43,231 nt of DNA from a virus. Of this stretch, positions 1-43,231 are shown in pieces. The notes beneath the pieces were generated by a model. It was not told the DNA's origin, did not search any database, and saw nothing but the letters and a program-made list of their open reading frames with translations. The first letter of the stretch is position 1, and each line of letters opens with the position of its first letter. The position numbers were made by a program, and so were the translations under genes. The stretch spans positions 1 through 43,231 of IMG/VR virus record IMGVR_UViG_3300042507_000782; one strand, 5' to 3'.

Positions 1-47
1 GACTTGATAGCCAGATCAATCGCCTTAACCTCAGTTATAAGTTTCAT
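1..47 (-). pseudogene. Partial 5' end of the first early gene (repeat copy)
   Basis: This is the first 47 bases of the reading frame starting at 43079, present a second time because of the terminal repeat. The start codon lies at 47-45 on the - strand, with the AGGAAAG ribosome-binding site just upstream. On a circular molecule it is the same gene as 42627-43079. It is not an independent gene. Confidence 0.85.
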
Positions 48-142
48 GATTACTTTCCTTTCTGTTACTTGCTTTTCGTCAATCCCTACTTGTTACCTAG
101 AGATTGATAAAGAGCAAGTATACAATTCTTCTTATGTTTGTG

Positions 143-191
143 GGTACTAGCCTTTTCGCGTTTGCGATTGCTTAGGGTTACTCGGTACTAG
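143..191. repeat. GGTACTAG direct repeat pair
   Basis: GGTACTAG occurs at 143-150 and again at 184-191, 41 bp apart, which is about four helical turns. The spacing and the location upstream of the early - strand arm fit a protein-binding site pair, but this is inference. The same pair is present in the right terminal repeat. Confidence 0.4.
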
Positions 192-521
192 TGCGCGGCT
201 ACTGCCTTTTTACGTCAACCTGTACCTCAGGTGCGGCGCATCTAGTGATCTCCCCTAGCGTGTCTTTTAGATAAGTCAGCGCGACACGAGCGCCCGGTAG
301 CCTAAAGCCCCTCATATTTATCCCGTCAAGCCTCTCCCGCTACCGCCTCACGCTGGCAGCATTCTAGACCATCAAGTATGTAAATCAGCAGCGCAGCCAA
401 CCTCTCAACCGCAAGTATATCGCAGCATCCTAAGTAAACCGCTAAGTGTGATGTGTCCGTCTGTTTCGTTTGTTCTCCATGTCTCTCTCTATGAACCCAA
501 CATAACACAACCGAATAGGCG

Positions 522-6410: not shown

Positions 6411-6432
6411 ACACTATAGTAAGGATAAATAA

Positions 6433-6858: not shown

Positions 6859-6860
6859 GA

Positions 6861-7932: not shown

Positions 7933-7942
7933 GAAAAAATAA

Positions 7943-8343: not shown

Positions 8344-8462
8344 AAAAGAAGTTTGACGGAGACCAGCTTGTCAAGATTGTTAGGAAGCGTAGGACAAAGC
8401 CTAAGCACCTCAGAGTACGGAAGAAGCTTGGACCCAAGTCTGATATGAGAGGTGCAAGATAA
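8340..8462 (+). CDS. Small basic protein (40 residues)
   Basis: A short frame linked by ATGA (8340-8343) to the previous gene and by TAATG to the terminase small subunit. The product begins MKKKFDGDQLVKIVRKRRTK and is about one third Lys/Arg. The tight coupling on both sides and phage-typical codon use argue that it is real. A nucleic-acid-binding role related to packaging is plausible, but nothing identifies it. Confidence 0.5.
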   Translation: MKKKFDGDQLVKIVRKRRTKPKHLRVRKKLGPKSDMRGAR

Positions 8463-12260: not shown

Positions 12261-12262
12261 AA

Positions 12263-12493
12263 TTGAAAACAATTTGGTTTATGGATCTTCCGAAGGACCA
12301 ACAGGAAGGTTTCAAGAAACAGATTAGTTCTTCCAAGGATGTCTTGGAGAAACTTGAGAAGATAATCAAGGATAAGATCAAGGAAGTTGTTCTTACCGAA
12401 GATTATGAGAATCCTAGCTGGGCTTATAAGCAAGCAGATAGGAACGGTTATAACAGGGCTTTGACAGAAGTCCTTAACATTTTAAAGTTCTAG
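12263..12493 (+). CDS. Small protein between portal and scaffold
   Basis: A 76-residue protein, probably starting at TTG 12263 two bases after the portal stop. An in-frame ATG at 12281 would give a protein six residues shorter. It begins MKTIWFMDLP and ends YNRALTEVLNILKF, with a Lys-rich helical centre (EKLEKIIKDKIKEVV). I recall similar small proteins near portal genes of related podoviruses, but the function is unknown. AGGGA 8-10 bases upstream supports the TTG start. Confidence 0.55.
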   Translation: MKTIWFMDLPKDQQEGFKKQISSSKDVLEKLEKIIKDKIKEVVLTEDYENPSWAYKQADRNGYNRALTEVLNILKF

Positions 12494-12507
12494 ACCAAGG
12501 AGAACGT

Positions 12508-13257: not shown

Positions 13258-13277
13258 CATTATAAAGGAGAACAGTT

Positions 13278-14219: not shown

Positions 14220-14233
14220 TAGGAGGATAGAAT

Positions 14234-14713
14234 ATGAGTGTTGATTGGACAAATTCGGATGGTCTAGAGATCCGTTTCACTGGCCCGGAAGCTAACCAGA
14301 GTGGTGCTGGTGTTTCCACGCTGGGTGCCGTAAAGAACCTTATTGTGGACTTTACCTTCTCAGAAGCTATTACGGCTGCTGCTTGGTCCCATGAGGCTTT
14401 TATCCCGGCTGGCTCGTACATTAAGGCAGCTACGCTGGTTGTTACGGAAGCGGCTACCTCTGGTGGTACAGCTACCCTGACGATTGGTCTGGCTAAAAAG
14501 GATGGTACGGTAATTGATGCTGATGGCATTGATGCTACTATTGCTCTGGCTGACCTTGCCGCTGCTAAGGTGGTGAAGTGTGATGGTGCGCTGTCTGGTG
14601 GTGTAACCTCTGTTGGTGCAGATAATGCCTATGTGTACACGACTCCGACTACTTCTTCTAATGCCTTTACGGCTGGTAAGGGTAGACTTGTGATTGAGTA
14701 CATCGAAGTCTAA
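14234..14713 (+). CDS. Capsid-associated (decoration-type) protein
   Basis: A 159-residue protein with a strong AGGAGG site and the same operon as the coat protein. The sequence is beta-rich and Ala/Thr-rich (LVVTEAATSGGTATLTIGLAKKDGTVIDADGID) with no charge clusters. Small beta proteins directly after the coat gene are often capsid-stabilising or decoration proteins, so that role is inferred. A very stable hairpin follows its stop codon. Confidence 0.55.
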   Translation: MSVDWTNSDGLEIRFTGPEANQSGAGVSTLGAVKNLIVDFTFSEAITAAAWSHEAFIPAGSYIKAATLVVTEAATSGGTATLTIGLAKKDGTVIDADGIDATIALADLAAAKVVKCDGALSGGVTSVGADNAYVYTTPTTSSNAFTAGKGRLVIEYIEV

Positions 14714-14721
14714 CGAACTTA

Positions 14722-14743
14722 GGGGAGATCTTCGGGTCTCCCC
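14722..14743 (+). terminator. cUUCGg hairpin after the capsid genes
   Basis: Bases 14722-14730 pair fully with 14735-14743 (one G-U pair), closing a C(TTCG)G tetraloop. This is among the most stable small RNA hairpins. It is not followed by a T-tract, so it may be a partial terminator or a 3'-end stabiliser that protects the capsid mRNA. A consensus promoter begins only 8 bases later. Confidence 0.7.
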
Positions 14744-14750
14744 AATACTC

Positions 14751-14778
14751 TTGACAATTTTGAAAATAATAGTATAAT
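14751..14778 (+). promoter_or_regulatory. Consensus sigma70 promoter (TTGACA-16-TATAAT)
   Basis: TTGACA at 14751-14756 and TATAAT at 14773-14778, with 16 bp between them, are both perfect consensus boxes. It restarts transcription for the head-fibre, tail and ejectosome genes directly after the capsid hairpin. Transcription would start near 14785. The leader carries a G-rich hairpin at 14796-14809 that is also found after a - strand promoter at 40505-40532. Confidence 0.85.
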
Positions 14779-14792
14779 ACCATTACTGGTCA

Positions 14793-14809
14793 GGCGGGGT
14801 GTAAACCCC
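14793..14809 (+). promoter_or_regulatory. G-rich leader hairpin GGCGGGGTGTAAACCCC
   Basis: GGGGT (14796-14800), loop GTAA and ACCCC (14805-14809) form a 5-bp stem near the start of the transcript. An almost identical sequence (GGCGGGGTGTTAACCCC) lies at the same distance after the - strand promoter at 40505-40532. The conservation of both sequence and spacing suggests a function in initiation, RNA stability or recognition by a phage regulator. Confidence 0.6.
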
Positions 14810-14828
14810 ATACATAGGGATAAAATCA

Positions 14829-15464
14829 GTGGCAAATGTGCAACACAGTAACCTAACAGATCCTAACCTTCATGAGCCTAAGGGTATCTCTACGGCTACT
14901 GCTGATCAGGTGTATCTCTCTAATGGTAGTGCCTCTGGTAACTGGAGAGATGTAAACAGACTACCGGGTACTGGCTGGGGTCAGTACTCTAACAGTGTGT
15001 ATACAGCTACGACTTACCTTAATATTACTGATGCAGGTGTTGTCCTTCCCTTTGATACAAATGTTAATGTTACCCAGCTTCCGATTACTCTGACTGGCAG
15101 TACAAGTCCTTTGATGGATCTGACTACGGAAAGACTTCTTTTTGTCTCTGCTAACGATATGCACTCGATTACCATTGGGTTCTTTATTGCTACTGAAACA
15201 GGATCTGCTGCGTATGTAGATCTCTCTTTGTATACTTCTACTGATGGTTCAACATACGCTACTCTTGTTGGTGAAAGTACATACCCTATCCTGAAGTCTA
15301 CTGGTGGTACTGTTAACCAGTATGTTAATGCTTCTTCCTTGTTCCCTGTCTCATCTAATATGGCTACATACGGGGCTAAGATCCAGCTTAAGACAGCAAC
15401 AGGTGATGCTATCAATATCAAAGATATTAATCTGATTACAACCAGAGTTCATAAGGCTAGATAA
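14829..15464 (+). CDS. Head-fibre-like virion protein
   Basis: A 211-residue protein starting at GTG 14829, 9 bases after AGGGA. The N terminus contains NLTDPNLHEPKGISTATADQVYLSNGSASGNW. This H-x-L-x-x-P-x-L-HEPKG pattern recurs at the start of capsid fibre and head-decoration proteins of many phages. The remainder is beta-rich, with no enzymatic motif. It has its own promoter. It probably decorates the capsid and may help in attachment to cells or surfaces (inference). Confidence 0.65.
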   Translation: MANVQHSNLTDPNLHEPKGISTATADQVYLSNGSASGNWRDVNRLPGTGWGQYSNSVYTATTYLNITDAGVVLPFDTNVNVTQLPITLTGSTSPLMDLTTERLLFVSANDMHSITIGFFIATETGSAAYVDLSLYTSTDGSTYATLVGESTYPILKSTGGTVNQYVNASSLFPVSSNMATYGAKIQLKTATGDAINIKDINLITTRVHKAR

Positions 15465-15467
15465 AGC

Positions 15468-16220
15468 ATGGCTACAATTAAGATGACATTGCTGGAGATC
15501 GTTCAGGACGTAATGAACGATATGGACTCTGATGAAGTTAACGGTATCGCAGATACTGTAGAAGCTACCCAGATTGCCAACATCTGTAGGAGTGTGTATT
15601 ATGATGTAATTACAACGATAGATCTTCCTGAACATTCTGAGTTGGTTACTGTAACCGGGTTGTCTAATTCCCTCTACCCTAACTGGATGGATGCCAATTC
15701 TGTTACAGAGATTAAGGAGTTGAGGTACAATGTATCTGACACCCCCGGGGAACTTGAGTACAAAACAATCGATTATATTCCACCGGATGAATTTGTTCAG
15801 AGAATTTCTACAAGGGATACCACTGCGACCGAAGTAATTGTAGTAAATGATCCCGTATCCGGTATTGGTCTTCCGATTGTAAATAATAAGATGCCTGACT
15901 ATTTCACATCATTCGATGACAGGTATTTTTGCTTTGATAGTTATGACTCCTCTATCGATAATACACTCCAGACAAGCAAGACTCTCTGCCTTGGTATCAA
16001 GATTCCTACCTTTACCATGACAGATAGCGCAGTACCGGATATGGATGATACGATCTTTCCTTACTACCTCGCAGAGGTAAAGACTCGGGCTCTGTCTCTC
16101 CTTAAGGGAGGGGCAGACCCATCTGTTACAGAGTTTGCCAGAAAGCACAGGTACTTCCAGAAGAACAATCGTTGGAAGACCGGAGAACAAAGGATACTTA
16201 ACAACTATGGCCGTAGATGA
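15468..16220 (+). CDS. Tail adaptor / tubular protein A-like
   Basis: A 250-residue protein at the position of T7 gp11 (tail tubular protein A), between the capsid genes and the large tail protein. It begins MATIKMTLLEIVQDVMNDMDSDEVNGIADTVEA and ends ARKHRYFQKNNRWKTGEQRILNNYGRR, both typical of this family of head-tail connector rings. It would sit under the portal. The last 14 bases overlap the next gene. Confidence 0.7.
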   Translation: MATIKMTLLEIVQDVMNDMDSDEVNGIADTVEATQIANICRSVYYDVITTIDLPEHSELVTVTGLSNSLYPNWMDANSVTEIKELRYNVSDTPGELEYKTIDYIPPDEFVQRISTRDTTATEVIVVNDPVSGIGLPIVNNKMPDYFTSFDDRYFCFDSYDSSIDNTLQTSKTLCLGIKIPTFTMTDSAVPDMDDTIFPYYLAEVKTRALSLLKGGADPSVTEFARKHRYFQKNNRWKTGEQRILNNYGRR

Positions 16221-28807: not shown

Positions 28808-29055
28808 AACTCATACATGTTCGCCAGAAGCCTTGACTTAGCAAGGTCAAGCAAAACATAAACCTCATCTGGAGTAAGACCAAGGTTCCATGACACTTTA
28901 AAGTGATCACCGGACCAGCCTACAAGGATCAGACTTTCATAGTTACCGATCCCTTCCTTCAGTAGATCGTCAGGAGTAACCCCCGGAGTTTCCTCTGGGG
29001 GTTTTTCTTTGCTCTTCTGTACCAGCTTCAGTACCTTCTTATCTTCATTATCCAT
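28804..29055 (-). CDS. Small conserved phage protein of unknown function
   Basis: An 83-residue protein at the end of the - strand arm, coupled to the RNR stop by a one-base overlap. The middle is acidic and Pro-rich (KEKPPEETPGVTPDD) and the second half is more structured (YESLILVGWSGDHFKVSWNLGLTPDEVYVLLDLAKSRLL). I have seen the VGW..DHF..S..L...E..Y.LL..AK pattern in other phages, without known function. The Pro-rich section coincides with the + strand terminator hairpin, so its coding is constrained by that structure. Confidence 0.6.
   Translation of the reverse strand: MDNEDKKVLKLVQKSKEKPPEETPGVTPDDLLKEGIGNYESLILVGWSGDHFKVSWNLGLTPDEVYVLLDLAKSRLLANMYEF
28978..29007 (+). terminator. Rho-independent terminator of the late arm
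   Basis: Bases 28978-28988 pair with 28993-29003 (11 bp with one G-U pair) around the loop TTTC. The 3' arm runs into TTTTT (29002-29006), then CTTT. It lies 170 bases after the last late gene, on the + strand, inside the coding region of the - strand gene at 28804-29055. It would stop late transcripts before they run antisense into the RNR gene. Confidence 0.85.
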
Positions 29056-30983
29056 TAGGTAATATCCACAATTTCACAAACACCAGCGGTACAGGCCAAG
29101 GACTGAGATGCCTTAGTCGTATCTTCCTTCTCGTACTCAGACAACCTAGACCAGTCAATAGTCTCTGGCATCTGAGCAAGGAGGGCTTCGTACTCTTCAA
29201 CAGTGCAGTCCTCATACGGTGCTTGCTTATAGATATGATCAGAGTGAGGAAGGAAGCTAAGACCAGAGGCGATGTTGAAGTTCTCGTACAACCAAGAGCC
29301 TACCGATACCCACTCATCAGGCTTGACTGAGACAGTAATCGAAGGCTTATGCTCACACCAGAACTCAGCATAGATCTTCCACAGGTCAAGGTGTTCCTCT
29401 GCATCCAGATCATGGCGAGTAACAGCATCGACAGGAGCTTTTACAGGGAAGCTGAACACCGTAGTATTCTCAGGCTTCATAATATCAGGCTCGTTAGGAA
29501 TACCCATGTCCTTCATGAACTGGGTAATCGGGTCTTTGTTATCACCACGGACACGGCGGATGTAGTAGTCATTGTGCCGGGGGTGAATACCAGAAGCAGA
29601 GTTAACAAGCTGAGACACTGTACCAGAAGGCTTGACACAGGTAATAGCAGCAGAGACAGGAATACCGAGCTTCTCAGCCCAGATCTTGTTTGTATTAATC
29701 GCTGCTTCCTTCAGGGCAGTTAGTGCAGCAGGAAGCTGACCAAAAGGATTCCTACCATTAAGGACATCATGATCCATGATACCAGTAAGGCTGACACCAA
29801 GGAGGCGCTCTTCTTCTGTGTTCTTAGCCCAGATCTTACGGAGGTAGGGGAAGTGAGTGTACGTTGCTTGGACAGTACCAAGGATCGTAGCAAGTTCTAC
29901 CTTACGCTTCAGATCTTCAATGCTATCTGTTGCACGAACAACAACCTCAGTCAGGTTACAGAACTGGTACGGACGAAGGATGATCTCAGAGCAAGGGTTC
30001 GTACCAAACTCATGATTAGGATCACGCCTACCGTTCTTAGCCGTATGCTTTTGTGCTGCAACGCGAGAGAACATACCACGCTCACCAGTACCAGAGTCAA
30101 CCAACGAGGCCCATTCATGGAGGAAGGTGCTGGCATCAGGCTTTTCTGTATAGGCAACAGAGTTGTTAGCCAGTGAACGCTGGGGGTTTGTCTCCCAGAA
30201 CTGGCCTGTCTTGGCATGGCGCATACGGTCATCAGACAGGTTAGACAGAGAGATCATGGCAGAGCGACGAACACCGCCGACTACGACAACCTCACCAATC
30301 TTGCACATAATGTCATGGCACTCAAGGGAACTAAGCTTACGACCAGAAGCATTACGGAAGATGGAGACAACAAAGCGGAACAACTGGTCAAGAGGTTCAG
30401 GACCAGAAGCACGGCCACCAAAGACCTTCAGCCTAGAACCAGCAGGGCGGATCTTGCTCATATCCCACTTCGGTACTTCACCTGAGTACAACAAAGAGAT
30501 AAGCTGACGAAGAGCCTTGGCCCAGCCTTCCTTGCTGTCAGAGACAACGATCATCGTCTGAGAATCGAAGAGCTTCTCCGGTACTTCAGGAAGCTTGCTG
30601 ATGTACTGACGCTCAACACTGAACCCAACACCAGTACCACACATCAGGATAAACATAGCCTCATCGAACGACTTCATGTCATCGACAGGGAGGTAGGAAC
30701 AGTTATAGGCACAAGTATTATCACGCTCCAGAGCCTTGCCAGCAGTCATCATGGCCCGCATACTGGGCATGATCTCAAGGTTCAGGATAGCCTCACGGAT
30801 AGCAGTATTAGTCGCTACTGCCTCCTCAGTCTCAGGCATTTTAGGATAGACAACATTCTCCATGAACCTATCAACAGTCTCTTCCCAAGACTCACGGCGG
30901 TTATCATCTTCAATCCAACGTGCGTACCGGGAGGTGGCAATAAAAGTCTGGTAGTCAGTTGGAAGATTCTTCATCGTATTCAT
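29055..30983 (-). CDS. nrdJ: Class II (adenosylcobalamin-dependent) ribonucleotide reductase
   Basis: A reductase of 642 residues that makes deoxynucleotides for phage replication using vitamin B12, without oxygen or a second subunit. Key parts are the NTCAYNC segment, GTGVGFSVER, NPCSEI (Asn-Cys-Glu catalytic motif), FCNLTE, and VKPSGTVSQLV. A C-terminal Cys pair in LACTAGVC serves in re-reduction. The length fits monomeric class II enzymes of phages. It overlaps a small upstream gene by 29 bases and is coupled to the downstream gene. It is intact. A B12-using or B12-containing environment is implied, since no cobalamin synthesis genes are present. Confidence 0.9.
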   Translation of the reverse strand: MNTMKNLPTDYQTFIATSRYARWIEDDNRRESWEETVDRFMENVVYPKMPETEEAVATNTAIREAILNLEIMPSMRAMMTAGKALERDNTCAYNCSYLPVDDMKSFDEAMFILMCGTGVGFSVERQYISKLPEVPEKLFDSQTMIVVSDSKEGWAKALRQLISLLYSGEVPKWDMSKIRPAGSRLKVFGGRASGPEPLDQLFRFVVSIFRNASGRKLSSLECHDIMCKIGEVVVVGGVRRSAMISLSNLSDDRMRHAKTGQFWETNPQRSLANNSVAYTEKPDASTFLHEWASLVDSGTGERGMFSRVAAQKHTAKNGRRDPNHEFGTNPCSEIILRPYQFCNLTEVVVRATDSIEDLKRKVELATILGTVQATYTHFPYLRKIWAKNTEEERLLGVSLTGIMDHDVLNGRNPFGQLPAALTALKEAAINTNKIWAEKLGIPVSAAITCVKPSGTVSQLVNSASGIHPRHNDYYIRRVRGDNKDPITQFMKDMGIPNEPDIMKPENTTVFSFPVKAPVDAVTRHDLDAEEHLDLWKIYAEFWCEHKPSITVSVKPDEWVSVGSWLYENFNIASGLSFLPHSDHIYKQAPYEDCTVEEYEALLAQMPETIDWSRLSEYEKEDTTKASQSLACTAGVCEIVDIT

Positions 30984-34344: not shown

Positions 34345-34694
34345 TAGCGATTGTCTCCATTCCCACGAAGAGTACCGTTCTTAACCCGGATGCCCAGCTT
34401 TTCTAGATTGTGTTGGGCAACAGAGGAGAGAGGAAAACCATGATGCTGGCAAAGACAAGAGAGATACCAGAGGACATCTCCCAGTTCAGCAAAGAGCTTC
34501 TCCTTAAACAACGGGGTATAGTTCCCGAAAAACATATCAGTCTGGTCTGACCAGTACCTGCTGTCCTGACGCTCATACTTTTGCATCAGTGACATTACCT
34601 CACCAATCTCAGCGGCAAGGCCATAGGTAAGATGCTCTGGTGTATCAACCAGCAGGGTAGTCAAAGCCTTTTCTTGATACTCATCAAAGTCCAT
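34344..34694 (-). CDS. MazG-like nucleotide pyrophosphohydrolase
   Basis: A 116-residue all-helical protein. AAEIGEVMSLMQKYER and KLFAELGDVLWYLSCLCQHHG give the E-x-x-E ... E-x-x-D metal-binding pattern of the MazG family. It would hydrolyse (d)NTPs or alarmone-type nucleotides, adjusting the pool during infection. It overlaps DUF3310 by 11 bases and shares a base with the exonuclease start. Confidence 0.82.
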   Translation of the reverse strand: MDFDEYQEKALTTLLVDTPEHLTYGLAAEIGEVMSLMQKYERQDSRYWSDQTDMFFGNYTPLFKEKLFAELGDVLWYLSCLCQHHGFPLSSVAQHNLEKLGIRVKNGTLRGNGDNR

Positions 34695-34950
34695 CTTCTA
34701 GTTCCTTTAAAAGTCTGTTCAGGTACCACTGTGCTTTCTTAAGATCTTCCAGAGGCTTCTTCTTGTACCTCCAACGATGGAGATACTTCTTCATGTTACC
34801 CTCAAGATAACCAACGTAGTTATCGAAGGGCATATTATCTTTGAGGTATTCGATACACTCGATTGTCCCATTGTTGTAATGGGAGGGGGACTCCACAGAA
34901 TCCCCCTTATCTTTAACCTCTACTTCATCAGGGATGTAGTAGTTGATCAT
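34684..34950 (-). CDS. DUF3310 protein
   Basis: An 88-residue protein with the family signature SPSHYNNGTIECIEYLKDNMPFDNYVGYLEGNMKKYLHRWRYK and LEDLKKAQWYLNRLL. DUF3310 is widespread in phages and includes part of T7 gp1.7, which is linked to nucleotide metabolism. It starts at the ATGA overlap with the SSB stop. Its message contains a strong hairpin just before the SPSHY codons. Confidence 0.85.
   Translation of the reverse strand: MINYYIPDEVEVKDKGDSVESPSHYNNGTIECIEYLKDNMPFDNYVGYLEGNMKKYLHRWRYKKKPLEDLKKAQWYLNRLLKELEDGL
34885..34906 (-). other. Stable 9-bp mRNA hairpin inside DUF3310
   Basis: On the - strand transcript, GGGGGATTC pairs with GAGTCCCCC around loop TGTG. The one non-Watson-Crick position is G-U on this strand but C-A on the other, so it favours function in the - strand RNA. 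No T-tract follows. It may stabilise or separate segments of the message. Confidence 0.45.
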
Positions 34951-35495
34951 GCTTCGATTTCAAACTCCACTGACCGGGGCTTAACCTCAAGGTTCTCAGA
35001 CGGAGGGAACGGATCGCTTTCAATTGCAGCAGCGAACTCATCAGTAGGCTTCTCGTAAGAGACAAGCTCGACAACCTTCAGAGTACCAAACTTCTTCTTC
35101 TTATTCTCTTCGTCCCAGTCAATCATCTTGCCAAGCTTGATGACCTTGCCATACTTCGGCGTATCATACGAACGCCAGTAAACAATGCACTCAGAGCCGT
35201 TACCGATTAGAGCCTTTGTACGCTTACCATTCTCATCAATGATAACCATCTCAGACTCAAAGCCCTTCAGGTCAACGACAGGATTACGCAGGGTAAGATA
35301 CTTACCACCGTCATTGATCCGTTCCTTACCATCCTTGATCTTCTTATCAAGGCGAAGTTCGATAAGCTTCTTCTCAATCTCAGGAGTTACCGCAAGGTTA
35401 ACTTCATAGTTCCCGAACTGCGAGGGTTCTTGAACATGGGCGAAGTAAACCTTGGTGCGGAACTCACCAGTAACAGTCTTCGATGCAGTAGCCAT
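34947..35495 (-). CDS. ssb: Single-stranded DNA-binding protein (T7 gp2.5-like)
   Basis: A 182-residue protein starting at ATG 35495 with a GAGGAAAG site. The longer frame upstream lies in the promoter. It has EFRTKVYFAHVQEPSQFGNYEVNLAV, a typical beginning for this phage SSB family (DUF2815/gp2.5-like), and an OB-fold-type beta pattern. The acidic, hydrophobic-ended C terminus VEFEIEA resembles the partner-binding tail. It would coat single strands and coordinate the polymerase and helicase encoded just upstream. Confidence 0.78.
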   Translation of the reverse strand: MATASKTVTGEFRTKVYFAHVQEPSQFGNYEVNLAVTPEIEKKLIELRLDKKIKDGKERINDGGKYLTLRNPVVDLKGFESEMVIIDENGKRTKALIGNGSECIVYWRSYDTPKYGKVIKLGKMIDWDEENKKKKFGTLKVVELVSYEKPTDEFAAAIESDPFPPSENLEVKPRSVEFEIEA

Positions 35496-35524
35496 TGTGT
35501 CTTTCCTCAGTTGATCGTAATCAT

Positions 35525-35552
35525 ATATTATCATGTCGTAGTAGATTGTCAA
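35525..35552 (-). promoter_or_regulatory. Promoter for the SSB operon (TTGACA-16-TGA-TAATAT)
   Basis: On the - strand, TTGACA (35552-35547) is followed after 16 bp by TAATAT (35530-35525) with an extended TGA before it. The -35 box overlaps the DNA polymerase stop codon (caTTGACA). The leader to the SSB start is about 25 nt. It could boost SSB and the downstream genes above the polymerase level. Confidence 0.55.
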
Positions 35553-37267
35553 TGGGTTTCTGCCCAATTGTTCCCAACCTTGTATTCGCCGTCGAGAGGA
35601 CAGTTCATCTTGAAGTATGAACCAGCATCTCTGATAGCCTGTACTTGCAGCTTACCAAGATCTTCTGCTCTTGTTTCTTCCACCTCCGTTTGCCATTCAT
35701 CGTGGACCCAGACAACCTGTTTGAAATTGATCTTCTCCTTCTTTGCTCTGTTATACCAGAAGACATTAGCCAGTCGCATGATGACAGTCTCACCGCCTTG
35801 GAGGTAGACAGAGAGAGACTTATGCTCAGACTCAATCTGTATTCTCCTGCCGTCAAGACCAACAAGATAACCACGCTGCGCTGCCATAGAAGCCTTACGC
35901 TTCAGTTCTTTCAGGGCAGGAATACTATGGAGGAAGTTATCCATAGCAACCCCTGCTTCTTTTACAGTACAGCCCAGTATCTGTGCTACCTTAGCCTGTC
36001 CTGCACCAAGCAGCCAAGCATAGATAAAGGTCTTAGCTGTTGGGCGGTCCTTACAATGCTCACCCAAAGCATTCTTGTTAAAGGTATGGATGTCACCCTC
36101 AAGCAATGTCTTCGTGTACTCAGGGTCATTCATGTAGTGGGCAAGTACACGAAGTTGTATTCCTGAAGCATCTGTTCCAACCAGTTTAGAGCCTCCGGGG
36201 ACAGTCCAAGCCTGTCTGCATTCGTATGCAAATAGCCCAGATAAGCCACGCTCTGTGGTGATAGAGGGGATGTTCGCCATGTTGGGGTTCTGGTGAGTGG
36301 CTCTGTGGGTTGAGGCTCCGGGTACGATAACTTGTCCGTGGACTCTTCCATCTCCGTCCATTCTATCCAACCAGTCTTTTGCTGTCTTCCATCTTGTCTC
36401 AAGGATCTTCCACCTCTTCAAGTCTTTAACACACTCAGGCATATCCCTACCGTCAGGCATACTATCAGGAATAGTATCAAGGTTTTCCTGACAGATCTTC
36501 CAACTCTTACCTGTCTTCGTAGGGACTGTCGGTTTCCAGCCAAGTTCGTCAAGTCGCTTAACGATCTGAGAAGGTGACCCAAGATTGAAGTATTCGACAT
36601 GATCCTTTAACCTTTTACCTGTCTTCTCAGAGTACCGTTCTGTTACAATCGGAGGGAAGTACTGAACGATGGCATTTTCAATACGGTTAGCCTCTTGCAA
36701 AGCACCAGTATAGATCTCCATAGCTACAGATTTATCCAGAAGAAAACCATTCCTGATTTGCTCAGAGATAATATACTGCATCGAATGCTCAAGGCGGATA
36801 GACTCAGCAGAGAAGCCTTTCATCTGGTGTGTTAGATGCAGGTACAGTTTCTCTGTAACCTTGACATCCTGTTTGCAGTACACCTTCATCTCTTCTGAGT
36901 ACCTGTCGAAGGATTTGAACTCTAGTTTTCTTTCGCCAAGACGTTCACCCCATCGCTCAAGGGAATGCCCGTCCAGACTAGGCTGGTACATGCGGGACAG
37001 TACAAGAGTATCCGTTTGCCGTTGTACTGGTATAGTAATTCCCCACAGTTTGGACAAAGCCCATCCGTCAAAGTGTATTGAGTTGTGTCCAATATACTCT
37101 GCCCCGGAGAACTTATCATAAAATTCTCCAAACTTATCTTTGTCTCTGAAGATGTAGTATCCATCCTGCCCAACAATCTTTGCCACCAAGATATGAATAA
37201 CCTTGGGATCAAGGGCATCAGTCTCGATGTCCCATACGATCTTCAATTTCCCAGTCTCGGATTGCAT
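35549..37267 (-). CDS. T7-type DNA polymerase (family A)
   Basis: A replicative polymerase of 572 residues with 3'-5' proofreading. Exo motifs are WDIETDAL near 12-19, GHNSIHFDGWAL and YCKQDVKVTEKL. Polymerase motif A is TDASGIQLRVLAHYMND, motif B KTFIYAWLLGAG and motif C VWVHDEWQ. The residue equal to E. coli Pol I 762 is Tyr, as in T7 and typical of virulent phages. Motif B is unusual in having Leu where the otherwise conserved Tyr (766) is expected, and Ala for Gly763. It is shorter than T7 gp5 (704). It overlaps the preceding small gene by 50 bases. Confidence 0.92.
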   Translation of the reverse strand: MQSETGKLKIVWDIETDALDPKVIHILVAKIVGQDGYYIFRDKDKFGEFYDKFSGAEYIGHNSIHFDGWALSKLWGITIPVQRQTDTLVLSRMYQPSLDGHSLERWGERLGERKLEFKSFDRYSEEMKVYCKQDVKVTEKLYLHLTHQMKGFSAESIRLEHSMQYIISEQIRNGFLLDKSVAMEIYTGALQEANRIENAIVQYFPPIVTERYSEKTGKRLKDHVEYFNLGSPSQIVKRLDELGWKPTVPTKTGKSWKICQENLDTIPDSMPDGRDMPECVKDLKRWKILETRWKTAKDWLDRMDGDGRVHGQVIVPGASTHRATHQNPNMANIPSITTERGLSGLFAYECRQAWTVPGGSKLVGTDASGIQLRVLAHYMNDPEYTKTLLEGDIHTFNKNALGEHCKDRPTAKTFIYAWLLGAGQAKVAQILGCTVKEAGVAMDNFLHSIPALKELKRKASMAAQRGYLVGLDGRRIQIESEHKSLSVYLQGGETVIMRLANVFWYNRAKKEKINFKQVVWVHDEWQTEVEETRAEDLGKLQVQAIRDAGSYFKMNCPLDGEYKVGNNWAETH

Positions 37268-37505
37268 CAGCTTGCTTTCTCAGGTATGCCGCAGTTGCTT
37301 CTAGTTCGTAGGCCAGCTTGGCAATAGCTTCCCTACCATCTTGTCTGATCGTTGGTGGGATACTTGGTACACACTGACTCTCAATGAAATCATTAGCCAT
37401 CTTGAAAAAGGTAATGATCTCTTCCTTGTCATCGACAAAGATATGGAAACCTTCCTCGCTCAACCACCCATCGATGTACAAGGTAAACTTAGTTGTCATT
37501 TCCAT
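37218..37505 (-). CDS. Small protein between primase-helicase and polymerase
   Basis: A 95-residue protein. I place the start at ATG 37505, 6 bases after AGGAGG and inside the end of the primase-helicase gene. It begins MEMTTKFTLYIDGWLSEEGFHIFVDDKEEI and has a helical C terminus (AIAKLAYELEATAAYLRKQADAIRDWE). No family is recognised. Overlap with genes on both sides suggests a role connected with the replisome (inference). Confidence 0.55.
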   Translation of the reverse strand: MEMTTKFTLYIDGWLSEEGFHIFVDDKEEIITFFKMANDFIESQCVPSIPPTIRQDGREAIAKLAYELEATAAYLRKQADAIRDWEIEDRMGHRD

Positions 37506-39066
37506 CATGCTCCTCCTGCCCAACGGGCTTATCAGGTTGCTCTTCGATTAGTCTGCCAGATTCAGTATGGTAACGGAGATGCGTAGCCAATCCTGTCATA
37601 CCACTGAACCTGTTCTTGACTACACGGACACGGACGATGTGCCTCTCAGCAGGATCATCCGCCTGTGTATTCCTTTCAAGACCCAGAATGATATTAGACA
37701 ACTGCCCAATCCCGGCAGTCCCACGGATATCAGACAGGCTAACAGCAGCGCCTTCTTCATGCGACTGACCATTCGGTTGCCTCTTCAAGTGTGCAGCCAT
37801 GATGATACAGATACCAAGCTCAACAGTCAATGTCTTAAGCTTGGTAGAGATCTCATCTAATGCACGGCGCTCATCACCATTGCTCTGGTCAGAGACTACA
37901 ATAGAGATGTGATCCAGTACAACATACTTACAGTCCAAAGCACGGACAAGGTAACGTATAGTACTGAGAATCCTATCAATACTGTTACTGCCAAAGCTAT
38001 CATAAAGAAATACACGGCCTGAGCCAACCGTTGCTTTATACGCATCATCGAACTCATCCTTTGTGTACTCTGCATCAGGGAGATAGAGTCTCTTATTCGC
38101 ATGGACAGACATCAACCCAAGACCAGTATCCCTGATAGGTTCTTCAAGGAAGAGGACACCGATGTTAGCCTCAGTGTTATTCAAGAGTCCATAGACAAGC
38201 TCTCTGAGGAATTGTGTTTTTCCAACGCCTGTTCCAGCAATGACAGTAACAAGTTCTCCAGTTCTGAGTCCATAGGTATAGTCGTTGACACCATCCCAAG
38301 GGTAGTTGACAGAGAGATACTCAGGCTTTCGGAGGAGAAGATCATAGATGCTTGACCCGGATACAATACCATCTGGTGTGAATGGTCCTGCTGTTCTGTG
38401 CTGCTCATAGAACTCCTTGATATTATTATTAACAAGATAATCAGAAGCATCCTTGTGATGGGACAGCTTCATGATCCTGACTTTCTTAGGATCAAAGAGA
38501 CCAGCAGCCTTAGCCATAGCCTCCTGCCCTGCCTTATCATTGTCAAAGGCGAAGGTGATACGCTTAAAGGAATTGACCCATTCGTAGTTACGCTTCAGGT
38601 CAGAGACAGCAGTGCTTGCTGAACAGACAGAGACAACAGGTTCATTCAGCATCTGGTATGCAGAGAGTGCATCAAGCTCGCCCTCTACAATAGTCAAAGA
38701 GTTACCCCCTTGGGGGAACAACCCCTGACCAAACAACTCAACCTGACCCGGAGATCCAGACCAAGGGAAGCCAGCCTTATCAGGTAGTCTGGTCTTAACA
38801 GCAATGAGTTTACCATCCTTATAGTACGGGTACATATGCCGTCCGTCATGCTGTAGGACTTTGTAGAACTCAACAGTCTTCTGGTTGATCCTCCGGTCAT
38901 TGATAGGGGCGATGTCACCCTTCATCATCACTGGAGTATTGCTCATGTTCGTCATCTCTTCTTCACCTTTGAAGTACTTGTTGCATACGAAGCAGTACTG
39001 GTGGTCACCGTAATCGTATAGCCCGTCACTCGATGTCCCACAAGGGCAAGGTAGGTGCTTCTTCAT
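37489..39066 (-). CDS. T7 gp4-like primase-helicase
   Basis: A 525-residue fusion. The N-terminal zinc-binding motif (CPCGTSSDGLYDYGDHQYCFVC, split here as CPC...CFVC) is followed by a TOPRIM primase domain (SLTIVEGELDALSAYQML and ITFAFDNDKAGQEA). The C-terminal RecA-like hexameric helicase has Walker A AGTGVGKTQFL, Walker B-type KYVVLDHISIVV, and RGTAGIGQLSN. This matches T7 gp4 (566 residues). It would unwind the fork and lay primers for the DNA polymerase. The first 41 bases overlap the small zinc-ribbon gene. Confidence 0.92.
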   Translation of the reverse strand: MKKHLPCPCGTSSDGLYDYGDHQYCFVCNKYFKGEEEMTNMSNTPVMMKGDIAPINDRRINQKTVEFYKVLQHDGRHMYPYYKDGKLIAVKTRLPDKAGFPWSGSPGQVELFGQGLFPQGGNSLTIVEGELDALSAYQMLNEPVVSVCSASTAVSDLKRNYEWVNSFKRITFAFDNDKAGQEAMAKAAGLFDPKKVRIMKLSHHKDASDYLVNNNIKEFYEQHRTAGPFTPDGIVSGSSIYDLLLRKPEYLSVNYPWDGVNDYTYGLRTGELVTVIAGTGVGKTQFLRELVYGLLNNTEANIGVLFLEEPIRDTGLGLMSVHANKRLYLPDAEYTKDEFDDAYKATVGSGRVFLYDSFGSNSIDRILSTIRYLVRALDCKYVVLDHISIVVSDQSNGDERRALDEISTKLKTLTVELGICIIMAAHLKRQPNGQSHEEGAAVSLSDIRGTAGIGQLSNIILGLERNTQADDPAERHIVRVRVVKNRFSGMTGLATHLRYHTESGRLIEEQPDKPVGQEEHDGNDN

Positions 39067-39205
39067 CTTCTAGTTCTTTCAGTAGTACCGTTCGTTGAAT
39101 AACATTCTGGCATTCAGAGCATGGTGAGAACTTAACTCTGCCATTGTGCCTCTCAATTCTTATCTCTCCATCAGGTGCATCCTTGTTACAGACATAGCAT
39201 CTCAT
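39026..39205 (-). CDS. Small zinc-ribbon protein (59 residues)
   Basis: A short frame starting at ATG 39205 (TGATG overlap with the previous stop) and ending inside the primase-helicase gene. The product begins MRCYVCNKDAPDGEIRIERH and has a second pair, CSECQN, so CxxC...CxxC could bind zinc. The end is acidic (LLKELEDEEAPTLPLWDIE). It is probably a small regulatory or replisome-associated zinc ribbon. Coupling and phage-typical codons support it. Confidence 0.65.
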   Translation of the reverse strand: MRCYVCNKDAPDGEIRIERHNGRVKFSPCSECQNVIQRTVLLKELEDEEAPTLPLWDIE

Positions 39206-39396
39206 CAGATATTCCAGTACCTACAATAGAAATGTTTACCAAGAGAATCAATCTCATGGCGAGGGTACCCGTTATCTACAAGCCAGTCAAGTGTCCTGTG
39301 CTGGTGTTCCTTTGGGAGAACCTTCGGGAACCCATACTTCCACCCGTTAGGGGGATCTACCATGAGACGTTCAGCCTTCAACTCTGACGATGACAA
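39205..39396 (-). CDS. Small conserved phage protein (63 residues)
   Basis: Begins MSSSELKAERLMVDPPNGWKYGFPKVLP and ends HFYCRYWNI. The DPPxGWKYGFPK motif recurs in small phage proteins of early and replication regions; function unknown. It overlaps the HTH gene by 26 bases and couples to the zinc-ribbon gene. Confidence 0.6.
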   Translation of the reverse strand: MSSSELKAERLMVDPPNGWKYGFPKVLPKEHQHRTLDWLVDNGYPRHEIDSLGKHFYCRYWNI

Positions 39397-39616
39397 TGCT
39401 GCCTCCTAGTGTGTTGATAACTGCTTCGATATCTGAAACCTTCGGGGAACTATCGTTGTTCCTCCACTTCCTGATAGTGTTGGCACCAATGCCAGACATC
39501 TCAGATAGTTTCTCGTAGGTAATCTTTCTTTCCATTACCTGTTCATGTATCCACCTGATCATGGGGTGGATGTAAACATCAGTAGGTAGTGGCTTGAGTG
39601 GTTTACCTTTAGTCAT
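39371..39616 (-). CDS. Small XRE-type helix-turn-helix protein
   Basis: An 81-residue protein; I use ATG 39616 after AGGA because the longer frame runs across the preceding gene. WIHEQVMERKITYEKLSEMSGIGANTIRKWRNNDSSPKVSDIEAVINTLGG is a clear Cro/CI-type HTH (helix 2 ITYEKLSEMSG, recognition helix NTIRKWRN). It could regulate the early arm and is the best candidate to bind the palindromes in the control region. No lysogeny genes accompany it. Confidence 0.75.
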   Translation of the reverse strand: MTKGKPLKPLPTDVYIHPMIRWIHEQVMERKITYEKLSEMSGIGANTIRKWRNNDSSPKVSDIEAVINTLGGSIVIVRVEG

Positions 39617-39797
39617 CAGTGTTATCCTGTGTAAGAGGGAGGATGATGCGGCTGGGGTTGAACGTGGGGCGCATCTCCATATCAGGCCATGCATTGATGG
39701 CAGCGGCGATGGCTCCCTTAGCGGTCAAGGTTCCGTCCATCCAAGCTTTGCGAAATGCACATTCCACCTCATCCGGTATCTGGTCAGCGCGGATCAT
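39609..39797 (-). CDS. Small protein with foreign codon use (62 residues)
   Basis: Begins MIRADQIPDEVECAFRKAW and contains TAKGAIAAAINAWPDM. The IPDEV..A...A......GAIAAAINAWP pattern is common in small proteins of alphaproteobacterial phages. It is GC-richer and uses GCG and CGG-type codons, unlike the AGA-rich neighbours. Function unknown. Probably acquired with the next gene. Confidence 0.55.
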   Translation of the reverse strand: MIRADQIPDEVECAFRKAWMDGTLTAKGAIAAAINAWPDMEMRPTFNPSRIILPLTQDNTDD

Positions 39798-40069
39798 GTG
39801 TCACCTCCAAGGGGCTTCGCCATACGGTCCTGCGGACCTTCTAGAGCGGCAAGCGCGATGCGCCACCGCTGGTCATCCAATGTCATCGGGCCAGCGTCAC
39901 GGATTTCCTTCAGCGCCGCCCTCAGCCGCTCAATCTCATCAGCAGCTTCAACAAGAAGAGTATCGCGCTTTCCATCGTAGCCACACGAACAGTCATACTC
40001 ACGACCTTGGCAACCACGCTCATGGTCATCTCTTGCGTAACCGCGCAGCTTCTCCACTGTGTCAGCCAT
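39794..40069 (-). CDS. Small protein with Cys motif and helical ADEIERLR tail
   Basis: A 91-residue protein starting at ATG 40069 after GGAGG. It begins MADTVEKLRGYARDDHERGC, includes CQGREYDCSCGYDGKRD with three to four cysteines, and then has LLVEAADEIERLRAALKEIRDAG, a phrase typical of accessory proteins in temperate and virulent phages. GC-rich with GCG/CGC codons, it looks recently exchanged. Function unknown. Confidence 0.6.
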   Translation of the reverse strand: MADTVEKLRGYARDDHERGCQGREYDCSCGYDGKRDTLLVEAADEIERLRAALKEIRDAGPMTLDDQRWRIALAALEGPQDRMAKPLGGDT

Positions 40070-40235
40070 TCTCACCTCCAAGGGCAGTGCGCAGCTTGGC
40101 GTTCTCTTCCAATAGTCTACGGATCTCCTGCTTCAACCTTTCGTTCTCAGTATCCATACTCTTGTTCTCTACCTTGTAAGTGTACAGCATACTTTGAAGG
40201 TGTTCCAGTTCCCTATCCCTGTGTATCTCACTCAT
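40062..40235 (-). CDS. Short coiled-coil protein (57 residues)
   Basis: I use ATG 40235 (MSEIHRDRELEHLQ). The product is almost all coiled coil, with ERLKQEIRRLLEENAKLRTAL having Leu at heptad positions like a leucine zipper. Overlaps both neighbours by 8 bases. Probably a dimer that pairs with another protein; function unknown. Confidence 0.55.
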   Translation of the reverse strand: MSEIHRDRELEHLQSMLYTYKVENKSMDTENERLKQEIRRLLEENAKLRTALGGENG

Positions 40236-40431
40236 GCATAGCATCCTGTTGCTTCTTGTTTCTCTCAATACAAATAGCATTCCACCCGATGAAGTCACCA
40301 TTACTCTTAAGCTTGTTCATCTCTTCACTGAACATCTGTACATCTGGGCAGTTGTCTACATCAAAAACCTTCATGTTAAGGTTACCCTCATTGGTAATGA
40401 CAGACATGACAAAGATAAATTTGGTGAGCAT
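40228..40431 (-). CDS. Small early protein (67 residues)
   Basis: ATG 40431 follows AGGAG at a good distance and is the first start codon after the internal promoter at 40505-40532. Begins MLTKFIFVMSVITNEGNLNMKVFDVDN and includes QMFSEEMNKLKSNGDFIGWNAICIER. No recognised family. It is the first gene of the middle transcription unit. Confidence 0.6.
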   Translation of the reverse strand: MLTKFIFVMSVITNEGNLNMKVFDVDNCPDVQMFSEEMNKLKSNGDFIGWNAICIERNKKQQDAMHE

Positions 40432-40472
40432 GTTAGATCTCCTGTGTTAATCACTGATTTGTACCTACGATA

Positions 40473-40489
40473 GGGGTTAACACCCCGCC
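40473..40489 (-). promoter_or_regulatory. G-rich leader hairpin GGCGGGGTGTTAACCCC
   Basis: Starts 15 nt after the -10 box of the - strand promoter. GGGGT, loop GTTA/TGTTA and ACCCC-type arms form a short stem. The sequence differs from the leader at 14793-14809 by only one base, on the opposite strand and 26 kb away, so it is unlikely to be chance. Confidence 0.6.
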
Positions 40490-40504
40490 AACATTGGTTC
40501 AATG

Positions 40505-40962: not shown

Positions 40963-41619
40963 TTACGCCACCTTTCTGACACGATTGATCTGAACGTTGA
41001 TCTTCTTCTTCGGTGTATGCAGAGGATACACGACTAGACTGATAGACTTATCCCAACAGGCACGGCAAGGACCACACTTACCACCTCTGGTATAGGCATC
41101 GCAGAGTTTAGCACCATCGATGGTATCGGTGATCTCTTGGACTACGACAGAGCCATGCTCTTCTGTGTAGACTCCATTGGTAGACGGGGAAGAGTATCTG
41201 ACACTGGCATTCGGCAGTGACTTAATTCTATCCAGCCAGTACCTGATCTTGGGAATAGTGTAAGACTTAGACGGGAGCCAGTGATGGCACCATGGTGTAC
41301 GCCTGATGACTTCATAGATCTTTTGTGCAAGCGCAGCAGAGTAAACGTCACCCGAATCAAACCAACGGAAGTATCGCTCTGTGTCCAAGGCTTGGACCAT
41401 ATCATCCGCCCAAGAAATACGCTTCCAGTCTTGCCTGTTATGCTGGCGTGGCTTGATGACATTATCCATCCGATAGAATCCAGACTTGGCATAGCAGTCA
41501 CGGCATACCTCTATAACTTCTTTAGTTACTGGATTGATACTGCCCGGACAAGTCTCCCCTGCTTGGAGGGACCATGATTTACCGGGCATCTTGCTTGCCT
41601 TGGACAACAGAACTGGCAT
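40963..41619 (-). CDS. Gene product 88-like cysteine-rich protein
   Basis: A 218-residue protein; I use ATG 41619 (GGAGG upstream), since the frame before it overlaps the previous gene. KASKMPGKSWSLQAGETCPGSINPVTKEVIEVCRDCYAKSGFY is the signature of phage 'gene product 88' proteins, with CPGS and CRDCYA cysteines. Near the C terminus, CGPCRACW adds three more. The cysteine sets could bind Fe-S clusters or zinc. The fold and activity are unknown to me. It is in the early arm, so it probably acts on the host or on phage nucleic acids. Confidence 0.7.
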   Translation of the reverse strand: MPVLLSKASKMPGKSWSLQAGETCPGSINPVTKEVIEVCRDCYAKSGFYRMDNVIKPRQHNRQDWKRISWADDMVQALDTERYFRWFDSGDVYSAALAQKIYEVIRRTPWCHHWLPSKSYTIPKIRYWLDRIKSLPNASVRYSSPSTNGVYTEEHGSVVVQEITDTIDGAKLCDAYTRGGKCGPCRACWDKSISLVVYPLHTPKKKINVQINRVRKVA

Positions 41620-41620
41620 G

Positions 41621-41881
41621 TTAGAACTCCTCCATTGCATTGTCAGACCAGAACATAGGTTCACTGTAACAGGACCAAACAGTAACCTCCTGCACAACAG
41701 GATCACCCCAGAAATCTACATCCACCTGATCACGGTACATGACATAGACTTTATCCCAGCCACCCATATCCTCCTCACTACAGTACTTCTTAGCCCAGTT
41801 AACGGCAGATGTTCTCCAATCTGTTTCGTGTAGGCAGACAGTATCATCCGTCTTTCTATCCCAGCCCATGATATAGAACAT
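41621..41881 (-). CDS. Small early protein, Trp/Tyr-rich (86 residues)
   Basis: Starts at ATG 41881 in a TAATG overlap, with GGAGG upstream. MFYIMGWDRKTDDTVCLHETDW and WDKVYVMYRDQVDVDFWGDPVVQEV contain many aromatic and acidic residues. No family recognised. Typical of host-takeover proteins only by position. Confidence 0.6.
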   Translation of the reverse strand: MFYIMGWDRKTDDTVCLHETDWRTSAVNWAKKYCSEEDMGGWDKVYVMYRDQVDVDFWGDPVVQEVTVWSCYSEPMFWSDNAMEEF

Positions 41882-42171
41882 TATTCCACCTCCTGTATTG
41901 GCAGTGCAGATACCATACAAGTAACCCAGTTGTGCAGATCTTCCACCGCATACATAGCCTCGGATCTCTTGTACTTCCGGCCAGTGTACACCGTAGCCAT
42001 CTTCAATAGCTTACTAATAGTGACTCCCCTTGTTGGGATAAGACCGCATTTAACATACAGCTTGATGCTAGTCTTGATCATGTTAACCCTGAACAGTTCA
42101 GTAGCATCTCGACCGACATAAGAAGTCGCTTCCTTACGGCCCTTACTATAGACGATGTATGAGTCTTCCAT
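41881..42171 (-). CDS. Small early protein (96 residues)
   Basis: Starts at ATG 42171 after GGGAG; an earlier in-frame ATG lacks a site. Begins MEDSYIVYSKGRKEATSYVG and has a helical, moderately basic centre (LFRVNMIKTSIKLYVKCGLIPT) and SEAMYAVEDLHNWVTCMVSALP. No recognised family. Its stop shares a base with the next start. Confidence 0.6.
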   Translation of the reverse strand: MEDSYIVYSKGRKEATSYVGRDATELFRVNMIKTSIKLYVKCGLIPTRGVTISKLLKMATVYTGRKYKRSEAMYAVEDLHNWVTCMVSALPIQEVE

Positions 42172-42172
42172 G

Positions 42173-42349
42173 TTATTCTCCCAATCCTTCAGATACATAT
42201 GCAGCTACTGCCTTGGACTCATCGCCAGACATAAGCAGGTGCTTAAGGCTACGGATATCCCGCCCTGTTATCTTGGCTAATTGCTTCAGTGTCGTGTTGG
42301 GATTTGTATCGTACATCTCCCGGATTTCCTGAGGTGTATACCAGCGCAT
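42173..42349 (-). CDS. Small helix-turn-helix-like protein (58 residues)
   Basis: ATG 42349 follows AGGAG in the previous gene and shares one base with its stop. MRWYTPQEIREMYDTNPNTTLKQLAKITGRDIRSLKHLLMSGD reads as an HTH (TLKQLAKITGRDIRSLKHLL), with the polar recognition helix at 31-40. Possibly a small early regulator. The longer frame upstream is not used because it runs through two other genes. Confidence 0.6.
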   Translation of the reverse strand: MRWYTPQEIREMYDTNPNTTLKQLAKITGRDIRSLKHLLMSGDESKAVAAYVSEGLGE

Positions 42350-42423
42350 TAGATTTCTCCTGTTGCTGCAAAATAGAAGACCAAGATAGTGCCAGCCATG
42401 ATTAGATACATCGCCACCGTCAT
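42349..42423 (-). CDS. 24-residue membrane peptide
   Basis: A tiny frame locked between two genes: it starts in a TGATG overlap and ends in a TAATG overlap. The product MTVAMYLIMAGTILVFYFAA plus four more residues is almost entirely one membrane helix. It fills an otherwise empty 75-base gap and has a GAGGGTG site. Candidate early membrane modulator; function unknown. Confidence 0.55.
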   Translation of the reverse strand: MTVAMYLIMAGTILVFYFAATGEI

Positions 42424-42611
42424 CACACCACCCTCGCATCATAAACCCAATGGCTATAGTGATCATCAGGATCATGCTTTGCCATGACATTACTGATGTA
42501 TTTACAGTATTCCTCCGCCTTCTTCTGACTAGAGCATACCTCACTGATATAAGTAGATTTAGTTGATAGCTTGAAAGCCATGACGATATAAACCTTGCGA
42601 GACTTAGGCAT
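42423..42611 (-). CDS. Small early protein (62 residues)
   Basis: ATG 42611 follows GGGGAGGA. MPKSRKVYIVMAFKLSTKSTYI and AEEYCKYISNVMAKHDPDDHYSHWVYDARVV show a beta-strand/helix pattern. Proteins of this sort ('KVYIV...S....AEEYC') are common in phages without known function. Coupled to the membrane peptide gene. Confidence 0.6.
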   Translation of the reverse strand: MPKSRKVYIVMAFKLSTKSTYISEVCSSQKKAEEYCKYISNVMAKHDPDDHYSHWVYDARVV

Positions 42612-42626
42612 TTGATATTCCTCCCC

Positions 42627-43079
42627 TTATGCCACAAGCTTGTTAAGAGCGTTGAACAGTTCCTCAGGCACGTTGTCGTTCTCAGATCCTACGCGATCCG
42701 CAGCTTTCTTGACAAGCGCCTTGATAGCCTCTGCCAGATCCATAGGCTTGTACTCTGCTTCCGGCTTGTATTCCTCCGGTGACGTAGCAATCGCACCTTC
42801 GATGTTGGACTTCTTGGACTTGTCATAGACAAAAGCCTTCTGAGTATTATCCCAGTTAACTTTACCAAAATCCTCCGCCCATGACTTGAGCGCATTAGAC
42901 CTCCATCCGCCCGGAAGGGCAGACATAAGCCTATTGAGCAAAGTGATATCACCATGCTTTTCGATATGGTTCAGGCACGACACCGCACAGATATGAATAT
43001 CCTTTTGCAGCTTCGCACCACGGCTCTGGATTGACTTGATAGCCAGATCAATCGCCTTAACCTCAGTTATAAGTTTCAT
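42627..43079 (-). CDS. First early protein, conserved phage family of unknown function
   Basis: A 150-residue protein with an AGGAAAG site before ATG 43079. MKLITEVKAIDLAIKSIQSRGAKLQKDIHICAVSCLNHIEKHGDITLLNRLMSALPGGWRSNALKSWAEDFGKV is a pattern I recognise from many T7-like and other podoviruses (A...I..RG.KL..DI......C..H...HGD...LN.L..A.P.G.R..AL..W...). Function unknown. The C terminus is acidic/helical. It is the first gene of the early arm and begins inside the terminal repeat. Confidence 0.75.
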   Translation of the reverse strand: MKLITEVKAIDLAIKSIQSRGAKLQKDIHICAVSCLNHIEKHGDITLLNRLMSALPGGWRSNALKSWAEDFGKVNWDNTQKAFVYDKSKKSNIEGAIATSPEEYKPEAEYKPMDLAEAIKALVKKAADRVGSENDNVPEELFNALNKLVA

Positions 43080-43231
43080 GATTACTTTCCTTTCTGTTAC
43101 TTGCTTTTCGTCAATCCCTACTTGTTACCTAGAGATTGATAAAGAGCAAGTATACAATCCTTCTTATGTTTGTGGGTACTAGCCTTTTCGCGTTTGCGAT
43201 TGCTTAGGGTTACTCGGTACTAGTGCGCGGC
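43033..43231. repeat. Right copy of 199-bp terminal direct repeat
   Basis: Matches bases 1-199 throughout except for C at 43159 (T at 127). Its first 47 bases are the 5' end of the gene starting at 43079. The remainder, 43080-43231, is noncoding and corresponds to 48-199, holding the TATACAAT box and both GGTACTAG repeats. Confidence 0.95.

Follow-up and report, generated by a model that had tools for sequence, protein, structure and literature searches.

A predicted 24-residue membrane peptide gene, conserved among changing neighbours, beside the terminal repeat of a cobavirus-like podovirus

The window, that is, the whole stretch of 43,231 nt analysed here (IMG/VR virus record IMGVR_UViG_3300042507_000782), possessed two opposed gene arms, with the portal frame on the plus strand and the DNA polymerase frame on the minus strand. 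The portal shared 64.9% identity over 584 aa, its length, with that of Lentibacter phage ICBM2 (Zobellviridae, Cobavirinae), and was 61% to 65% identical to those of the Cobavirinae isolates Lentibacter phages ICBM1, ICBM2 and ICBM3, Celeribacter phage P12053L, and Roseobacter phages CRP-4 and CRP-5. Together with a terminal repeat and the opposed arms, this makes it most likely that the window is the complete genome of a cobavirus-like podovirus. The cobavirus group has been described as globally distributed. The features of the locus were as follows:

1..199, no strand: terminal repeat, left copy, a 199-bp direct repeat with one mismatch (comparison of the window ends)
43033..43231, no strand: terminal repeat, right copy, containing the start of the 150-aa gene (same comparison)
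42627..43079, minus: 150-aa gene, first frame of the minus-strand arm, phrog_1448 (PHROGs, E 1.6e-45)
42423..42611, minus: 62-aa upstream gene (gpA) with a DUF7336 match (Pfam, E 0.00069, below the curated cut-off), its stop overlapping the peptide start
42431..42435, minus: GAGGG, 7 nt ahead of the peptide ATG and candidate ribosome-binding site for the peptide (noted by eye, putative role)
42349..42423, minus: peptide gene of 24 codons, MTVAMYLIMAGTILVFYFAATGEI, with one predicted membrane span (sequence, substitution pattern and hydropathy)
42357..42361, minus: AGGAG in peptide codons 21-23, 7 nt ahead of the next ATG and candidate ribosome-binding site for the gene that starts there (noted by eye, putative role)
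42173..42349, minus: 58-aa downstream gene without a Pfam match at E 0.1, its start overlapping the peptide stop; replaced in relatives (frames and Pfam)
41881..42171, minus: gpD, the next conserved gene, 96 aa from a conserved MEDSYI start, used as bait (relatives)

Counted from the repeat, the order in the minus arm was thus 150-aa gene, 62-aa gene, peptide, 58-aa gene and gpD, which places the peptide within the first kilobase of this arm. In Pseudomonas phage SVOphi44, the homologue of the 150-aa gene was surrounded by small hypothetical genes and preceded a gene for a protein kinase. The same minus-strand array also encoded a GP88 family protein at 40963-41619 (Pfam PF17338, E 2.9e-27).

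The original prediction had described a tiny frame of 24 residues beginning in TGATG and ending in TAATG, and this was confirmed, on the minus strand, which the prediction had not given. The ATG lay at 42423-42421 and the stop TAA at 42351-42349; in TGATG the ATG overlapped the stop of the 62-aa frame (42611..42423), and in TAATG the stop overlapped the start of the 58-aa frame (42349..42173). The membrane-helix character proposed for the peptide held as well, with a best 17-residue Kyte-Doolittle mean of 2.12 and one hydrophobic stretch of helix length with little else, the span being judged from this hydropathy measure.

No known family was recovered for the peptide. In PHROGs no family was above threshold, the best E value being 0.023 for the window form, while a B form and a C form (see below) had no match even at E 1; in Pfam no match was obtained at E 0.1 with the window form, the only one searched. 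A DNA search of a phage collection with positions 41500-43231 gave no match, and three forms of the peptide, searched against its proteins, had no match at E 10, a weak absence, as low-complexity filtering may mask hydrophobic queries. Like the window, the Cobavirinae isolates have small hypothetical genes first on the replication arm, and terminal repeats are annotated in ICBM1 and ICBM2; in contrast, no homologue was found when short frames were scanned by profile in seven of seven isolate regions (ICBM2, 1-16000; ICBM1, P12053L, CRP-5 and CRP-4, 1-6000; ICBM3, 34500-40497; and one Pseudomonas phage region). The best isolate match (E = 0.0031) was a 16-residue frame inside the DNA polymerase gene of ICBM2, and was taken as chance. 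No paper on this peptide was found among the matches listed in a limited open-access literature search. These results indicate a new family, although tiny phage genes are as such a kind already known. Small phage proteins were reportedly the subject of a study by Fremin et al. in 2022. Small phage genes are described as known in great number, with functions mostly unknown, in the review of Beggs and Bassler (PMC11323111); the proteins treated there resemble the present peptide in being tiny and phage-encoded, whereas the main text of that review presents no membrane-helix mechanism and does not contain the word "transmembrane".

Relatives were sought by means of two neighbouring genes as bait, gpD and the 62-aa family, so that absence of the peptide could be counted, and 18 IMG/VR contigs were obtained; the bait alignments came mostly from peptide-bearing loci (9 of 11 rows in one alignment and 6 of 7 in another), which leaves a residual bias towards carriers. 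The peptide family occurred in 12 of the 18 contigs (L007, L008, L009, L011, L012, L013, L014, L015, L016, L017, L109, which is the same as L025, and L119), in profile counts for which form C was included in the profile itself, and form D also in the second count. The contig count overstates the independent evidence, since the copies in L013 and L014 were identical and one peptide was shared by L119, L012 and L015. Within the stretch examined, the peptide was not found in the other six (L010, L100, which is the same as L001, L101, L110, L111 and L112), where the absence is weak for L110, with just 767 bases before the bait match, and L101 is a distant relative on a 150-kb contig. With a third bait, a 69-aa protein labelled GREFFAN (L007:3627-3836) whose B-clade form had no Pfam match at E 0.1, 170 relatives were confirmed in viral contigs and 80 of them kept; among these 80 loci, the profile detected the peptide family in 10 and L025 made an eleventh, and every one belonged to the 18 contigs above. 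Scans of viral contigs with the 62-aa or 58-aa neighbour as single query gave no relatives; with the peptide alignment as query, 2 of 38 candidate stretches were confirmed, both on contigs already recovered; and a scan of genome contigs gave one locus, L102, uninformative on the peptide.

A frame broken in close relatives had been named as the finding that would speak against the gene. The frame was intact in the 12 carriers, but it was lost in L010, a relative of the B clade, and five more contigs were without it in the stretch examined. In L010 (407-1192), the frame of a gene of the 150-aa type continued across a stretch of low complexity, rich in Ala, Glu and Val, and joined the peptide's final codons, replacing the rest, and GGAG was kept at the position of AGGAG; this may be a real recombination or a misassembly. 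Because it is absent from the stretch examined in 6 of the 18 contigs, L010 included, the peptide is dispensable. In a gpD tree built for orientation, no inner branch reached the strict support mark, so gains and losses of the peptide are not separable from it.

Four forms of the peptide were distinguished. Form A (the window and L007), form B (MTLAMYGIIWATLILFYFAAKGVV; L009, L011, L016 and L017) and form D (MTLLFYILMAKIVVLGLAIASGEL; L025) consisted of 24 residues, and form C (MEMFLTAGMY..MVAIVTLLY.EGRKGI) of 28. A T, an M, a Y and a second Y eleven residues further on were invariant in six aligned A, B and C sequences, but were not all kept in form D. Nevertheless, the window and L025 peptides, which share 8 of 24 residues (counted by eye), were more similar than any of 3000 shuffles, and form D sat in the same place, behind the 62-aa gene; A, B and D are regarded as one family. 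Form C showed only moderate similarity, with a shuffle P of 0.003 to the window form and of 0.012 to B; a profile of A and B found it only at E 9.6, and with a profile of C neither A nor B was among the matches listed. As L025 combines the upstream gene of A with the downstream gene family of C (MQTLELR...), C probably belongs to the same family. The 26-residue membrane frames of L001 and L044 were considered as homologues and rejected, their similarity not being above that of shuffles (P 0.81 and 0.68). The frame of L001 (3635-3715, MSWSVQVNIFAGALAFTLGFLIAIYM), membrane-like and situated before a 62-aa family gene in a relative without this peptide, is a possible functional replacement of it. 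A 26-residue membrane-like frame starting at the end of the 69-aa gene was also observed in L041, L042 and L044 (4201-4281; MNILEMIGG..AFLIMWAFLFVLLSF), an arrangement of the same kind, with the L044 form not detectably related.

The neighbours of the peptide differed between contigs:

Window: 62-aa gene, peptide, 58-aa gene
L007: 62-aa gene, peptide, 69-aa gene
L025: 62-aa gene, peptide, MQTLELR gene
L009, L016, L017: gene like the 150-aa one (phrog_1448-type, by eye), peptide with TTG start, 69-aa gene
L011: 112-aa gene, peptide, 87-aa gene resembling the 69-aa one (by eye)
L008, L012, L013, L014: C form before MQTLELR gene
L015: C form before 117-aa gene

There were thus at least six gene contexts, with five downstream genes. 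The 24-aa forms overlapped the next start, whereas the C form ended one base before it; upstream overlap was seen only behind the 62-aa family, by one base in the window and L007 and by four in L025, and in most of the differing upstream sequences the start was preceded by purine-rich candidate binding sites (by eye). Accordingly, while both overlaps exist in the window, to call the peptide locked between two early genes, as had been proposed, was too strong, for only the 62-aa family overlaps it upstream and its downstream partner comes from several families. As neighbours differ between contigs, the peptide is not tied to one partner, and, from this sequence comparison, the most fitting interpretation is an accessory gene that is portable and would act in trans.

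Two readings assign the peptide to other phage functions. It could be a membrane anchor or subunit for another early protein of the phage, most naturally the upstream 62-aa protein, whose gene directly precedes it in the window, L007 and L025 and whose family occurs on 11 of the 12 peptide-bearing contigs, the twelfth ending soon after. However, the two genes are not adjacent in L009, L016, L017, L011 and the C clade, and the 62-aa family is also present in contigs without the peptide (L010, L001/L100, L110, L111 and L112), making such a partnership unlikely. It could also assist lysis when infection ends, in the role of a tiny holin, antiholin or pinholin, as the peptide is short and hydrophobic with a single span, and cobaviruses are thought to lyse by a holin-endolysin pathway (PMC6775973). 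Against this, the gene is not encoded with lysis genes: it lies beside the terminal repeat, on the arm opposite to an endolysin-like gene at 7076-7741 (sub-threshold glycoside hydrolase 19 match), and a separate plus-strand region, 6861-8343, contains four frames of 79, 64, 57 and 75 aa with membrane-like stretches by eye. Since the peptide is, in addition, missing from several relatives, a lysis role appears quite unlikely.

Conservation in relatives, proposed as a check on the prediction, was borne out as purifying selection confined to the peptide frame. Between the window and its closest relative, L007 (MTLAMYLIMAGTILVFYFAATGEI, same position), 6 of 7 substitutions were synonymous (neutral mean 1.5, P = 0.0005; 4000 simulations, kappa 2), a signal that rests on few substitutions; the NG86 estimates were dN 0.018 and dS 0.50, with a dN/dS of approximately 0.04. 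Read in the two remaining forward frames, the substitutions were non-synonymous in 7 of 7 and 6 of 7 cases. When clades A, B and C were pooled (2, 4 and 4 sequences, the last representing 4 of the 6 clade C contigs, start codon excluded), 15 of 23 substitutions were synonymous against a neutral mean of 4.9, a value reached in none of 4000 simulations. All four changes in clade B outside the start codon were synonymous; clade C alone had 5 synonymous versus 7 non-synonymous changes (5/12), and taken alone no strong constraint is visible in it. The dS between the window and L007 was higher in the peptide (0.50) than in gpD (0.12), and the 62-aa gene, though divergent elsewhere, had its final codons in common between the two; for these reasons, a small block around the peptide probably has its own recombination history.

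The substitution pattern also bears on whether the amino-acid sequence matters at all. The frame might be a coupling spacer, important only because its translation delivers ribosomes to the next gene, with the encoded residues incidental. Consistent with this are the TAATG overlap, the AGGAG within codons 21-23, the retention of just these last codons in L010, and the enrichment of the -1 nt spacing among prokaryotic gene pairs reported in PMC12548453; indeed, as L010 keeps the last codons together with the candidate binding site of the next gene, conservation of the C-terminal codons cannot be credited to the protein alone. However, 5 of the 6 synonymous changes to L007 fall in codons 2-16, upstream of AGGAG, the downstream gene comes from several families, and the 28-aa form ends one base before the ATG of its neighbour with no overlap, all of which render a mere spacer very unlikely. 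Next to negligible is the probability that the true coding frame is an overlapping one running into the 58-aa gene from upstream (a 154-aa TTG frame, 42637..42173), for although no stop interrupts it across the peptide in the window, and L007 has a similar open frame, 6 of 7 changes in it are non-synonymous, the register of the downstream start is closed by a stop codon within the peptide of L025 and of L008 (by eye), and the downstream gene differs in L007.

The prediction had also argued that the coupling makes chance unlikely, which is suggestive but insufficient, because frames that are coupled or hydrophobic recur by chance in the window and the loci. Five of the 96 ATG frames of 20-30 aa in the window reached a hydropathy of 2.05, as hydrophobic as the peptide, and one of these, at 30352 minus, starts in a TAATG string inside the 642-aa frame 29055-30983, a putative ribonucleotide reductase by likeness to cobaviruses. 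Over the loci collected, with nested starts counted separately, there were 39 distinct tiny hydrophobic frames overlapped at one end on the coding strand versus 16 on the opposite strand; with both ends overlapped there were 7 versus 2, and the 2 were the window's own peptide in a flipped locus. Other tiny hydrophobic frames overlapped at both ends on the coding strand, by longer frames that are putative genes, were observed at L045:5859-5924, L054:7638-7703, L046:3887-3943 and L092:1453-1530. What lifts the peptide frame above chance is conservation at the protein level, and given this and the substitution pattern a chance open frame has hardly any probability left; judged from these comparisons, the frame is almost certainly a genuine gene.

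The overall reading that we prefer, at a probability of about 0.5, is that of a genuine gene whose product, a membrane peptide of 24-28 residues with a single span, would act in trans on the host membrane. The peptide would be translated from its own candidate ribosome-binding site and, judged by its position as the third gene from the terminal repeat, be produced early; it would then insert into the cytoplasmic (inner) membrane, where a helix-helix contact in trans with a host membrane protein, or a lowered membrane potential, may favour infection. Because its neighbours vary, this action in trans would be expected to have a target shared by all settings, for which a host component is the simplest candidate. 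The overlaps of start and stop codons would be the usual junctions of a compact operon, at which ribosomes may be shared between neighbours and a gene may easily be exchanged at its boundaries.

Host peptides of similar kind make such an action conceivable. YohP of E. coli (27 aa) is reported to be inserted with SRP by SecYEG or YidC (PMC7549839) and to lower the membrane potential (PMC12719787); it resembles the present peptide in size class, but is a chromosomal stress protein, and no sequence relation is claimed. MgtR (30 aa), MgtU (28 aa) and AcrZ (49 aa) are described as short membrane proteins that bind a larger membrane protein (PMC10710835). They are likewise short and of membrane type, MgtR and MgtU being also of similar length, whereas they are host-encoded with known targets, so that they are likened by kind and not by sequence. 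The host-membrane mechanism is put forward tentatively, at slightly less than even odds. Of the effects originally suggested, superinfection exclusion is one possible outcome among several, and the sequence singles out neither it nor altered host membrane proteins. A bolder and rather unlikely extension is that the gene constitutes a minimal self-contained host-takeover cassette: it would consist of 72-84 coding bases plus the stop, come with a ribosome-binding site of its own and contain that of the following gene in its last codons, so that recombination at its boundaries could drop it between early genes without breaking translation, and its product, acting as one helix on a host membrane protein, would rank with the smallest phage effectors that are conserved.

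Annotation readily overlooks genes of such length, and a conserved effector of 24 residues would thereby go unseen. The arrangement suggests a route by which tiny genes may move in early operons, through overlap junctions and a coding sequence that contains the next ribosome-binding site. The four forms A to D, with their 24 or 28 residues, and the contigs that naturally lack the peptide are material for finding the target, and if this is a host transporter, receptor or protease, the peptide would show the action of one phage helix on it.
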